DNA from: Bacteroidota bacterium
GTDB lineage: Bacteria; Bacteroidota; Bacteroidia; Bacteroidales; UBA12077
Reading direction: 5' to 3'
NCBI GenBank assembly: GCA_020444275.1
Contig: JAHLLG010000004.1
Coordinates: forward strand, 124,001-188,000
DNA: 64,000 nucleotides
Below the pieces are notes generated by a model. That model had not been told where the DNA came from. It saw nothing but the letters and a program-made list of their open reading frames with translations, and made no database searches. The position numbers were made by a program, and so were the translations under genes. Shown piece by piece: positions 50,062 through 57,271 of the stretch; positions within the stretch are counted from its first letter, which is position 1; each line of letters starts with the position of its first letter.

Positions 50062-50273
50062 ATCCTGCTTACGATGACCTGTCTGCCTAACAATTAAGGT
50101 GTTGTCAGAGATTAAGAAGCTTAAAATAGGTCTTCGTTTTTTGCTTAGTTCTTCCACTTCGTATTAGGGTTTAAAAGAAATCAAATAAAAACACTGGTTT
50201 TTTTTAAAAAGTATTGCGTAATTAAGAACATTTCGTTAATATTGCAATCCGAAATTTGTTGATAAAACAAATC

Positions 50274-50395
50274 GGGCCCATAGCTCAGCTGGTGCCGAAG
50301 AAATTAGAAATCTATGATTTCATAATTTTTCGAGCATTCACGAAACAAGAGCAAAATCAAAGATTTTGATTGTTTCGGAATTAGAGCACCTGACT
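50274..50395 (+). pseudogene. Broken tRNA copy split by an 88-bp insert
   Basis: Positions 50274-50293 repeat the first 20 nt of the intact tRNA downstream, and 50382-50395 continue the same tRNA exactly (TAGAGCACCTGACT). Between them sits an 88-bp insert in the D-loop. After 50395 the match ends in the anticodon loop, so the 3' half is lost. It cannot make a tRNA. Both copies are preceded by TTTC/ATC-GGGCCC, which suggests a tandem duplication of the tRNA start. Confidence 0.8.
50294..50381. mobile_element. 88-bp double-hairpin insert (MITE- or REP-like)
   Basis: The insert begins GCCGAAG and ends TTTCGGAAT, giving short terminal inverted repeats CCGAA/TTCGG. Inside are two hairpins: an imperfect 17-nt pair at 50296-50312 with 50316-50332, and CGAAAC/GTTTCG at 50341-50346 with 50372-50377, with an inner AAAATC/GATTTT. 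It encodes nothing. No clear target duplication is seen beyond 1-2 nt. Confidence 0.5.
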
Positions 50396-50426
50396 GATGA
50401 AGGCCTAAAAAGTAAAGATAAATTTC

Positions 50427-50500
50427 GGGCCCATAGCTCAGCTGGTTAGAGCACCTGACTCATAATCAGGGGGTCCCTGGTTCGAGCCCAGGTGGGCCCA
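50427..50500 (+). tRNA. tRNA with CAU anticodon (Met elongator or Ile2)
   Basis: The 74-nt gene folds as a complete cloverleaf: acceptor GGGCCCA with TGGGCCC, D-stem GCTC/GAGC, anticodon stem CCTGA/TCAGG with loop CTCATAA (anticodon 50461-50463), T-stem CCTGG/CCAGG with TTCGAGC, discriminator A. CCA is not encoded. It is not the initiator type. CAU reads as Met, or as Ile if the C is changed to lysidine; sequence alone does not decide. A terminator follows at 50515. Confidence 0.92.
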
Positions 50501-50514
50501 CAGGCAATAAAAAT

Positions 50515-53273: not shown

Positions 53274-53344
53274 GTAGAACTTATACTAAGATAAATATTT
53301 GCAATTTTAAAATATTTGTTTATCTTTGTAGAAATTATACTAAG
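53274..53344 (+). repeat. Direct repeat flanking the RM promoter
   Basis: GTAGAACTTATACTAAG (53274-53290) recurs as GTAGAAATTATACTAAG (53328-53344), 16 of 17 nt identical, 54 nt apart. One copy lies upstream of the -33 box, the other at the transcription start. This is a plausible pair of operator sites. Confidence 0.55.
53298..53328 (+). promoter_or_regulatory. Promoter of the type I RM operon
   Basis: TTTG (53298-53301) and TATCTTTG (53321-53328), spaced by 19 nt, are a full Bacteroidota -33/-7 pair. Transcription would start near 53335, so the first gene must begin after that. Confidence 0.75.
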
Positions 53345-53351
53345 AAATAAA

Positions 53352-53924
53352 TTGGAAAATAGAATTAAAGACATAGCGATTGTTCAATCTGGAATGTATG
53401 CCAAAACAGACAAGTATGGTGATGTAATATATTTACAGGCAAAGCATTTTGATGAAAAAGGAACAGTAAAACCTTTGCTTCATCCTGATTTAAGAATGGA
53501 TGGAAAAATCAAAAACCATTTATTGAAAGATGGTGATTTGCTGTTTGCAGCAAAAGGAGCTAAAAATTTTGCCATAATTTATAGAGATAGGTTTGGTCGA
53601 GCTGTCGCTTCATCTACCTTTCTTGTAATTCGAGTAAAGCCTAATTATCAAAAAATAATTTCACCTGAATATTTAAAATGGTTTCTGAATCGTCCAGATT
53701 GTCTGCGTTTTTTACAAAGTGGTGCAAAAGGTACCGGTATTCCTTCGATATCTAAAGTCTTTATTGAAGATTTAAAGATAGATATTCCATCTATGCATAC
53801 TCAGGAAATCATTTTGGAAGTACATAAGTTAAGGGAAAAAGAAAAAGACATTAAACAACAAATTGAAGAATTAAAAGAAAAAGAAATTCAGTATAAACTA
53901 AAGATAGCTGCTAAAAAAGATTAA
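53352..53924 (+). CDS. hsdS: Half-size HsdS (single target-recognition domain)
   Basis: The protein is about 190 residues long and begins LENRIKDIAIVQSGMYAKTD, the usual start of an HsdS target-recognition domain. It runs through one TRD and ends in one coiled-coil spacer helix (about 160-190). I chose TTG 53352 because the longer frame from 53316 lies inside the promoter and no ATG fits without losing the domain start. HsdM begins 3 nt after the stop. A single-TRD subunit can work as a dimer or swap with the full HsdS of this operon. Confidence 0.75.
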   Translation: MENRIKDIAIVQSGMYAKTDKYGDVIYLQAKHFDEKGTVKPLLHPDLRMDGKIKNHLLKDGDLLFAAKGAKNFAIIYRDRFGRAVASSTFLVIRVKPNYQKIISPEYLKWFLNRPDCLRFLQSGAKGTGIPSISKVFIEDLKIDIPSMHTQEIILEVHKLREKEKDIKQQIEELKEKEIQYKLKIAAKKD

Positions 53925-53927
53925 AAT

Positions 53928-55499
53928 ATGAAAAATAAAATTTCACAAAAGGAAATTAATAATATTGTTTGGAAAGCTTGTGATACTTTTAGGGGTGTTA
54001 TTGACCCTAGTCAATATAAAGATTACATTTTAACAATGTTATTTCTAAAATACGTTAGCGATGTACATAAAGATAAGTTTAAGAACTATTTAGATAAATA
54101 TAATGGAGATACAGATCGTGCAGAGCGAGCTATGAAACATGAACGTTTTGTAGTTCCTAGCCATTGTTCATTTTATTACTTATATCAAAATCGTAATGAA
54201 GCTAATATAGGTGAACTTATTAATATTGCTCTAAATGATTTAGAAGAAGCAAATCGAGAAAAGCTAAGTAGCGAAGATGGTTCTGGTATTTTTAGAAATA
54301 TTGATTTCAATAGTAGCAATCTTGGTGATATTAAAGATAAAAACTCAAGATTAAAAAACCTACTTATAGATTTCAATGATGACAAACTCAATTTAAGTCC
54401 TTCATATCTTGAAGGCGCAGACATAATTGGAGATGCATACGAATTTCTTATTTCAAATTTTGCCAGTGATGCAGGTAAAAAGGCTGGTGAATTCTTTACT
54501 CCTGCTGAAATTTCTACCCTATTAGCGAAATTAACGAAATCGAAACCCGGCGCAAGAATATACGACCCAACTTGTGGCTCTGGTTCATTGCTAATAAAAG
54601 CTGGTAAAGAAGTAGGCTCAGAGAATTTCTCACTATATGGTCAAGAAGCAAATGGTAGTACATGGGCATTAGCTGTAATGAATATGTTTTTGCATGGTTT
54701 TGACAATGCTAATATACGATGGGGTGATACTATAAGGAATCCAAAACATAAGGAAGATGATGCCCTTATGAAATTTGACACTGTAGTTGCAAACCCTCCA
54801 TTTAGTCTTGATAAATGGGGTAAAGTTGAAGATAAAGAAGATAAGGAAAAAGCTAGCACAAGTTTTGATCCAGAGAAAGATAAATACAATCGATTCTGGC
54901 GTGGTGTTCCTCCAAAAAGCAAAGGAGACTGGGCATTTATTACTCACATGATTGAATCAGCCTATGAAGGACATGGGAAGGTAGGAGTTGTTGCCCCTCA
55001 CGGTGTTTTATTTCGTGGTGCATCAGAGGGTAAAATACGTCAAAAAACTATTGAAGAAAACATTTTGGAAGCTGTTATTGGCTTACCAGCAAACTTATTC
55101 TTTGGTACCGGTATTCCTGCAACCATACTTATTTTTAATAAAGGCAAAGATAAAAACACAAATGTATTATTTATTGATGGTAGTAAAGGTTTTGAATCAG
55201 GCAGAAACAAAAACAATTTACGGACTAAGGATATTGAAAAAATAGTCGAAACTTATCAGAAGTTTACTAATGGGAAACTTGGTTCAGGTGTAATAGAGGA
55301 ACGTTTCAGTTATTCCGCTACTCTTGAAGAACTAAAGGAGAATGATTTTAACCTGAACATTCCTCGATATGTTGATACATTCGAAGAAGAACCAGAAGTT
55401 GATATAAAAGATGTACAATCCGAAATAACAACTCTTGAAAAGGAATTAGTAGATGTACAAAATGAAATGGCTAAATATCTAAAAGATTTGGGAATATGA
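53928..55499 (+). CDS. hsdM: Type I restriction-modification DNA methyltransferase HsdM
   Basis: The 523-residue N6-adenine methyltransferase has an N-terminal helical HsdM domain. SAM-binding motif I is DPTCGSGSLL (from residue 213) and the catalytic motif IV is NPPF at 289-292. The length fits. It methylates host DNA together with HsdS and protects it from HsdR. The stop overlaps the GIY-YIG gene (ATGA at 55496-55499). Confidence 0.96.
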   Translation: MKNKISQKEINNIVWKACDTFRGVIDPSQYKDYILTMLFLKYVSDVHKDKFKNYLDKYNGDTDRAERAMKHERFVVPSHCSFYYLYQNRNEANIGELINIALNDLEEANREKLSSEDGSGIFRNIDFNSSNLGDIKDKNSRLKNLLIDFNDDKLNLSPSYLEGADIIGDAYEFLISNFASDAGKKAGEFFTPAEISTLLAKLTKSKPGARIYDPTCGSGSLLIKAGKEVGSENFSLYGQEANGSTWALAVMNMFLHGFDNANIRWGDTIRNPKHKEDDALMKFDTVVANPPFSLDKWGKVEDKEDKEKASTSFDPEKDKYNRFWRGVPPKSKGDWAFITHMIESAYEGHGKVGVVAPHGVLFRGASEGKIRQKTIEENILEAVIGLPANLFFGTGIPATILIFNKGKDKNTNVLFIDGSKGFESGRNKNNLRTKDIEKIVETYQKFTNGKLGSGVIEERFSYSATLEELKENDFNLNIPRYVDTFEEEPEVDIKDVQSEITTLEKELVDVQNEMAKYLKDLGI

Positions 55500-56071: not shown

Positions 56072-57271
56072 ATGCAAACATTAAATAAAAATAGAAAAGG
56101 ATATAAAGAAACAAAAGTTGGTTGGATACCTGTTGATTGGGAGGTGAAAACAATATCAGAAGCATTTCAAATTTGCAATCACTTACGATATCCAATTAGT
56201 CAAGAAGAAAGAAGTAAAATACAGGGGGATTATCCATATTATGGACCAACAAAAATTCAAGACTATATTAATGAATATAGATTGAATGGGACTTATGCTT
56301 TACTTGGGGAGGATGGAGATCATTTCTTAAAGTGGAAAGAGCAACCTATGACTCTATTAGTCAGTGGTAAATTCAACGTAAACAATCATGCTCATGTTAT
56401 AAAAGGTGTTGAGAATCTTACTGAATGGTTTTTTTATTACTTTAATCACAAGCCTTTAACTCCATATTTAACTAGACAAGGTGCAGGTAGGTATAAACTT
56501 ACAAAAGATTCATTAAAATCAATCCCTTGCGCTATACCTAAAGTTAATGAGCAGAAGAAAATTATTCAATTAATTAGTAGTTGGGATAAAGCAATTGAAC
56601 TAAATAGAAAATTGATCATTCAAAAAGAGCTACAAAAAAAGTGGCTAATTAAAGTGCTTTTGACAGGCAAACAAAGATTGAATGGTTGTAATAATGATTG
56701 GAGCTTTATACGATTCAAAGAAATTTTTAGTCCTATAAAAGAAAAAGCAAACGGTCGAATATTTAAAATACTATCTGTTACAAAAGAAGGTATAATTTCC
56801 CAATCAGATTATTTTAAAAAAGAAATTGCAAGTGAAGATACTTCAAAATATTTAGTTGTTCGAAAAGGGAATATGGTAATGAGTGGGTTGAATTTTTGGA
56901 TGGGATCAATAGATGTTTTATCAAAATATGAAGAAGGAATTGTTTCCCCTGCTTATAAAGTCTTTAAAATCTACAATCAAGACATATCAATAGATTTTAT
57001 GAAATTTTTCACAAGAAGTGAAATAATGAAAAAAGCATTAATTGGCTCTTCTGTTCAAGGAGCAAGTATTGTAAGGAGAAATCTTGACAATGAAATTCTA
57101 CAAGAGTGGGATTTTTATTTGCCAAATCTTGCTGAACAAGAACAAATAGCTAAAGTACTTCAACTTGCTGATAAAGAAACTGAATTGCTTCAAGTAAAAT
57201 TAGATAGCTTAATCAGTCAGAAAAAGGGATTAATGCAACAACTTCTTACGGGTAAAAAAAGATTGCACTAA
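56072..57271 (+). CDS. hsdS: HsdS specificity subunit, two target-recognition domains
   Basis: The 399-residue protein has the full HsdS plan: TRD1 (about 14-160) starting KVGWIPVDWEVKTISEAFQI, a coiled spacer ending LLTGKQRL (near residue 207), TRD2 (about 210-355) and a second spacer ending LLTGKKRLH. The two halves end in nearly the same motif, as expected for the internal repeat. It determines the bipartite recognition site. Confidence 0.95.
   Translation: MQTLNKNRKGYKETKVGWIPVDWEVKTISEAFQICNHLRYPISQEERSKIQGDYPYYGPTKIQDYINEYRLNGTYALLGEDGDHFLKWKEQPMTLLVSGKFNVNNHAHVIKGVENLTEWFFYYFNHKPLTPYLTRQGAGRYKLTKDSLKSIPCAIPKVNEQKKIIQLISSWDKAIELNRKLIIQKELQKKWLIKVLLTGKQRLNGCNNDWSFIRFKEIFSPIKEKANGRIFKILSVTKEGIISQSDYFKKEIASEDTSKYLVVRKGNMVMSGLNFWMGSIDVLSKYEEGIVSPAYKVFKIYNQDISIDFMKFFTRSEIMKKALIGSSVQGASIVRRNLDNEILQEWDFYLPNLAEQEQIAKVLQLADKETELLQVKLDSLISQKKGLMQQLLTGKKRLH

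Follow-up and report, generated by a model that had tools for sequence, protein, structure and literature searches.

The window analysed here is a stretch of 64,000 nucleotides (nt) from the genome of a Bacteroidota bacterium (G000:C1:124001-188000, where G000 designates that genome). It carries an intact tRNA gene with anticodon CAT that is preceded by a partial copy of itself, split by an 88-bp insert that folds into two hairpins. This layout resembles the mark that would be left by a selfish element of an undescribed kind settling at tRNA genes. The broken copy, the double hairpin and the short spacer that follows are likely the trace of a tRNA-anchored mobile module organized around a small GIY-YIG endonuclease open reading frame (ORF), of which the window would hold a GIY-YIG-less relic or a non-autonomous form. 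What is observed is the recurrence of the arrangement, its architecture, its association with GIY-YIG ORFs, the existence of empty and filled sites and the decay of one such ORF.

Organization of the tRNA(CAT) locus

The components of the locus are the following:

50236..50246, + strand: promoter-like word TTAATATTGCA, 5' of the broken copy, found at the same place in loci of the same genus with and without a broken copy
50274..50292, + strand: broken tRNA copy, positions 1-19 (acceptor 5' strand and D arm)
50293..50380, + strand: insert of exactly 88 bp with T...A ends, splitting the broken copy
50293..50336, + strand: hairpin 1 of the insert, TGC-CGAA...TTCG-(A)-GCA, stem foot with a bulged A (fold, covarying family structure, covariance model R1)
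50337..50380, + strand: hairpin 2 of the insert, TTC-(A)-CGAAA...TTTCG-GAA, hairpin 1 in inverted form (fold, covarying family structure, model R1)
50381..50395, + strand: broken tRNA copy, positions 20-34, the last base lying directly 5' of the anticodon
50396..50426, + strand: spacer of 31 nt, whose place is occupied by a GIY-YIG ORF in loci L152, L332 and L368
50427..50501, + strand: intact tRNA(CAT) (ARAGORN tRNA-Met, anticodon CAT; Rfam tRNA model, 71.4 bits)

Note that ARAGORN calls the intact gene Met, while we take it for tRNA-Ile2. The word TTAATATTGCA is presumably a promoter, judging by its likeness to the -7 motifs of Bacteroidota, and no second copy of it is found in the 31-nt spacer. 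The direct repeat spans about -3 to +34 of the tRNA. When the insert is excised its flanks form continuous tRNA sequence (GCTCAGCTGG followed directly by TTAGAGC), and since they rejoin in this way the insert has no target-site duplication. A transposon of the DDE-type miniature inverted-repeat (MITE) class was considered and rejected, as no short target-site duplication is present and the flanks rejoin to tRNA both in the window and in most other loci (read by eye). The insert folds more stably than its shuffled versions (z -4.47; 0 of 200 shuffles equally stable). The frame that enters the intact tRNA from the spacer stays open and would stop in the D-loop, as it does in L152, 31 nt being too short for this to be meaningful.

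The first-pass annotation of this DNA had described a duplicated tRNA whose first copy is split by an 88-bp double hairpin and whose intact copy follows after 31 nt. This description is accurate. Its division of the broken copy into 20 and 14 nt holds as to layout and becomes 19 and 15 here, the sole difference being which T is attributed to the element.

The double-hairpin family

The insert belongs to a family of double hairpins with covarying pairs that is spread over Bacteroidota. In a BLAST search of G000, part of the insert had a 76% match that led to a locus with the same layout at tRNA-Gly(GCC) (L008), and the core word TTTCGAGNNTNCWCGAAA led to a third case at another tRNA(CAT). A scan of species genomes with a longer word matched at least 119 stretches, mostly in metagenome-assembled genomes of Bacteroidota. 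Together with the earlier loci these yielded 93 parsed elements, or 88 once long and identical ones were removed. Each hairpin has a foot of the form TNC...GNA with one bulged base, and the variable foot bases covary in 84/88 elements on the left and 86/88 on the right, figures that lean towards pairing because the parser favours pairing ends. RNAalifold finds 25 consensus pairs in 74 aligned elements, 11 of them with two-sided changes, and covariance model R1 matches the window insert (50293-50380) with 82.3 bits (E 8.6e-17). Element counts depend on the pattern searches used, one of which, tied to AGCTCAG, is biased to tRNAs (it is the source of L042, L058 and L090-L092). The core-word and longer-word searches and both covariance-model searches (of G000 and of 25 genomes of the window's family) are free of this bias.

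A genome search for the element, proposed in the first-pass annotation, was made with the covariance model and returns seven copies in G000. With many more in other Bacteroidota, the insert is indeed a recurrent palindromic element. Carriage by phages or other viruses was considered and rejected, as none of the 15 viral stretches that match the core word holds a full element, and in the plasmid search only the tRNA part of the query was covered among the matches listed. Matches in Bacillales were discarded as family members, as they share only a short palindrome within another repeat; loci L095, L099, L136 and L163 belong to this different repeat family, which contains the palindrome TTTTTCGAGCATGCTCGAAAA.

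The elements are concentrated in partial copies of tRNA genes. Those with an intact tRNA downstream number 28 and represent 26 distinct loci, in 25 of which (read by eye; the exception is L138) the element is surrounded by a partial 5' copy of that same tRNA. Isotypes at element-bearing loci include Val, Ala, Arg, Gly, Asn, Pro, Thr, Ile and CAT tRNAs. Five of the seven copies in G000 lie in such 5' head copies (the window locus, Gly, a CAT tRNA, Pro and Ala), one lies behind tRNA-Ser(TGA) in a 3' tail copy with a duplicated terminator, and one adjoins a GIY-YIG ORF at a contig end. Across the 25 genomes of the window's family the covariance model finds 17 element positions, in 7 genomes: by eye, 15 are within partial tRNA copies of many isotypes, one is at a contig end beside a GIY-YIG ORF and one is elsewhere (G017). 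Tail copies in G000 are located 3' of tRNA-Arg(TCT), Ser(TGA) and Leu(GAG) (L265, L277/L329 and L283, respectively), with palindromes in the T-loop or acceptor; the terminator is duplicated at Arg(TCT) and Ser(TGA).

For elements outside tRNAs, a nearby copy of the empty site was not found as a general feature. Some of them (L117, L139, L169, L170, L197) are flanked on either side by degenerate repeats of short words such as ccaggaaccaggaa. With tRNA labels assigned by hand, 10/50 non-tRNA elements lie inside short-word repeats at a threshold of at least 17/24 matches, versus 14/615 control positions. The element may generate or favour such flanking repeats.

GIY-YIG ORFs and partial tRNA copies

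Several element-associated tRNAs are followed by a small ORF of the GIY-YIG family (Pfam PF01541). These ORFs are chromosomal, code for about 78-103 amino acids, belong to Bacteroidota and are found adjacent to the tRNA at L332, L152, L368, L384 and others. At L332 the broken tRNA-Glu copy contains a hairpin and stops in the T-loop; the GIY-YIG ORF comes next, then intact tRNA-Glu. At L152 tRNA-Pro sequence runs as far as the D-loop; then come an element of the window's family, a few more bases of the tRNA, the GIY-YIG ORF, whose frame terminates within the intact tRNA, and intact tRNA-Pro. Four genomes together have 14 small stand-alone GIY-YIG ORFs, 10 of which are within 130 nt of a tRNA; one more stands in tandem with one of these ten. 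A profile built from 12 aligned GIY-YIG proteins has matches in 92 of 198 genomes of the order, often as tandem copies, and of the 30 GIY-YIG loci fetched 22 lie no more than 300 bp from a tRNA, while several of the others are at contig ends. Three tandem GIY-YIG ORFs spaced by about 350-380 bp occur in G048:C20, G218:C1 and G110:C19, and probably represent whole modules repeated in tandem.

Each tRNA/GIY-YIG pair was scored for a partial copy of the tRNA beyond the ORF. A copy scoring above all 100 shuffles is present in 24/26 tRNA/GIY-YIG pairs (the misses are L353 and L359), a count that becomes 20/22 when the 4 pairs seen beforehand are set aside; the coordinates of the pairs were entered by hand, and the tRNA of L369 is an odd ARAGORN call. 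Control tRNAs without a GIY-YIG ORF within 400 nt, from regions fetched from G000, G070 and G237 (a part of the tRNAs in the latter two), have a partial copy in 13/80 cases.

Two tRNAs show the components side by side in related genomes. At tRNA-Arg(ACG) of G006, from the same genus as G000, a direct repeat of about -4 to +32 with a palindrome in the upstream copy is followed by the ORF and the intact tRNA; in G000 the same tRNA is an empty site with the same promoter-like word. The tail copy at tRNA-Gly(TCC) holds the window's element family beside an intact GIY-YIG ORF in G008 and G009 (at a contig end in the latter) and beside a decayed one, interrupted by stops, in G006. These two cases indicate that copy, palindrome and ORF travel together and that the ORF can decay while the rest stays, which is why we read 50274-50426 as a module without its ORF.

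Empty sites, filled sites and other palindromes

The first-pass annotation held that its view would fail if the element were absent elsewhere and the locus identical in all relatives. The locus differs between relatives. Fifteen of the 30 loci fetched are readable same-genus loci of the Ile2 type: 9 have a plain leader and are empty, and 6 have a head copy. The site is thus polymorphic for presence, as is tRNA-Arg(ACG), filled in G006 and empty in G000. All 6 head copies hold a palindromic insert, of three kinds and in three positions. Short-spaced head copies were also searched for in 295 genomes of the order with a pattern blind to the window's element family. The 12 genomes with matches include arrays of up to about four truncated tRNAs, of 57-73 bp, in tandem 5' of the intact tRNA. 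With tRNA labels again assigned by hand, a perfect hairpin is present in 15/17 distinct head-copy units, where it usually replaces part of the anticodon arm, and the other two units lack that arm. Tandem arrays of truncated tRNAs lie directly 5' of intact tRNA-Val, Asn and Gly at L245, L247, L248, L249 and L261.

A proposed tRNA-anchored GIY-YIG module and its alternatives

We infer from these associations how such a module might move. In its full form it would consist of a partial tRNA copy with a palindromic insert, a small GIY-YIG endonuclease ORF and the intact tRNA; a mirror-image form would have the intact tRNA first, then the ORF and a broken tail copy with terminator. The predicted enzyme would cut the tRNA gene, and repair would import the ORF together with enough tRNA sequence to restore one intact gene, so that a stretch of the tRNA would stand as a direct repeat beyond the ORF. 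The ORF would sit either behind the tRNA or within its 5' leader, and the promoter of the tRNA could drive its expression. The palindrome might protect the redundant copy from being cut, from recombining in a way that removes the module, or from yielding a tRNA-like transcript. At the window locus the ORF may have been lost from the spacer (50396-50426) by deletion, which would make the locus a relic, or the locus may have been made in trans, as a non-autonomous form.

Several observations weigh against this interpretation. The spacer of the window contains neither a GIY-YIG ORF nor a recognisable remnant of one, and tblastn finds no GIY-YIG at this tRNA in relatives (0/30 loci fetched with tRNA(CAT)); with no such ORF near its tRNA the window holds at most a relic or an ORF-less form. 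Most broken copies seen have no adjacent ORF, and in many genomes the element is also found where neither a tRNA nor an ORF is close by. The palindromes in some broken head copies are of quite another kind, and the window's element therefore need not belong to the GIY-YIG module.

A first-pass proposal that the element inserted into the tRNA, which was then rescued by duplication, finds no support in that form: a partial copy is the usual partner of GIY-YIG ORFs (the 24/26 pairs above), the extent of the broken copy matches that of the same-genus GIY-YIG insertion, and tail copies 3' of tRNAs carry the same element. An alternative, which we regard as unlikely, is that the insert resembles repetitive extragenic palindromic doublets (REPINs) or bacterial interspersed mosaic elements (BIMEs) and is moved by an IS200- or RAYT-type Y1 transposase with a preference for the D-arm, partial tandem tRNA copies being neutral landing pads and GIY-YIG another tenant of the same hot spot. 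The element does have two inverted REP-like hairpins with conserved, covarying feet, as in a REPIN or BIME, its insertion is exact without target duplication, it is also present outside tRNAs, and G000 has three matches to Y1 transposase genes. Against this, only 1/29 Y1 loci searched with the model (leaving out L234, the second copy of that locus) has an element nearby, and the Y1 match there is weak; neutral landing pads explain neither why most GIY-YIG/tRNA pairs have a broken copy beyond the ORF nor the hairpin in most units recovered by the element-blind pattern. A RAYT/Y1 enzyme as general mover was rejected after Y1 was searched in 12 genomes and neighbourhoods were scanned by motif and by model, with no general link.

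The tRNA is also the site of an integrative island, to which the following features are related:

50458..50505, + strand: 48 bp identical to G000:C1:199989-200036, a second copy outside the window with a tyrosine integrase beside it
53316-53924 and 56072-57271: two HsdS genes, type I restriction-modification, in the island
53928-55499: HsdM, type I restriction-modification, in the island

The 48-bp repeat is a probable attachment (att) core of this separate element, whose 25.5 kb between the repeats have the tyrosine integrase at the far end and type I restriction-modification inside. It is very improbable that the broken copy is a scar of the island's attachment site. Such an island exists at this tRNA, and islands of this kind leave tRNA fragments (PMC9897764). 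However, in the island it is the 3' half of the tRNA that is repeated (the core being tRNA 32-75 plus 4 nt), whereas the broken copy is a 5' part (tRNA 1-34) with a separate upstream junction, so fragment and core are not the same; moreover, head copies occur at many tRNAs and in tandem arrays, which integrases do not make. The island is of the ordinary integrative type and did not give rise to the broken copy. The earlier suggestion that an accessory element arrived at the tRNA therefore holds for the island and not for the broken copy, and calling the region defence-rich was fair, given the restriction-modification operon downstream. Note that, by eye, the gene ending just 5' of this tRNA in relatives (L002:1595-2347 and L014-L019) lies past the far att copy in G000 and is reversed, which suggests an inversion or another rearrangement.

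It is likewise improbable, if less so, that the pre-tRNA leader, containing a tRNA-like piece and the two hairpins, has been domesticated as an RNA under selection, for instance a decoy or a processing signal. The promoter-like word is conserved upstream of the broken copy, which is thus probably transcribed, and near-identical units exist in tandem arrays. Such a role is difficult to reconcile with the lack of a head copy at the same tRNA in most readable loci of the genus, with inserts that vary in sequence and position, and with tail copies that lie 3' of the terminator of the tRNA. The GIY-YIG module is the reading that we retain. A bolder version of it is put forward tentatively: Bacteroidota chromosomes may harbour selfish modules built on minute GIY-YIG endonucleases, with tRNA genes of nearly every isotype as homing sites. 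The modules would restore a whole tRNA out of the copy that they bring along, and their endonucleases would be expressed as part of the pre-tRNA, from the promoter of the tRNA. The redundant piece would be disarmed by a co-travelling palindrome, which could outlive them as a non-autonomous double hairpin. The window would be the endonuclease-free end state.

Relation to known systems and significance

The double-hairpin elements of Allomyces are comparable short mobile palindromes without a coding gene. Mitochondrial GC clusters share these properties, and are organellar and not tied to broken tRNA copies in the accessible part of their description (PMC4478555). REPINs and BIMEs, mobilized by RAYT (TnpA-REP), are alike in having two inverted hairpins, short tags at the feet and insertion without target duplication; they differ in their link to the transposase, which here is limited to the single locus mentioned above, and a concentration in partial tRNA copies is not reported for REPINs in the sections available of the source (PMC6006769). 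Integrative elements also leave a partial tRNA copy near an intact one, but the partner there is a large island with an integrase (PMC9897764), whereas the present loci show tRNA 5' fragments interrupted by palindromes, and also tandem arrays and GIY-YIG ORFs. No description of bacterial broken tRNA copies with palindromes and GIY-YIG ORFs was found in the open-access library searched, judged by titles and the openings of abstracts.

SegB of phage T6 is of the GIY-YIG type, and by analogy with it the cutting of tRNA genes and homing by a GIY-YIG enzyme are plausible. SegB is described as a homing endonuclease linked to tRNAs, under whose action a tRNA segment is amplified (PMC13096335). It resembles the present case as a free-standing nuclease found repeatedly beside tRNAs of many isotypes. 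It differs in being phage-borne, and palindrome-broken tRNA copies are not described in the section consulted (PMC13096335), whereas here predicted endonuclease ORFs are chromosomal, a partial copy lies on their far side, and the window itself has no ORF.

tRNA genes are already known as docking sites of integrases and, if the interpretation is correct, would have a second and much smaller kind of tenant. Such a tenant would account for many of the puzzling palindromes, tRNA fragments and tandem arrays of pseudo-tRNAs seen in Bacteroidota, and would provide a chromosomal counterpart to the recently described amplification of tRNA segments by a phage homing endonuclease. Empty and filled pairs are on hand for homing tests, and the question that these loci raise is the effect of the palindrome on the redundant tRNA copy.
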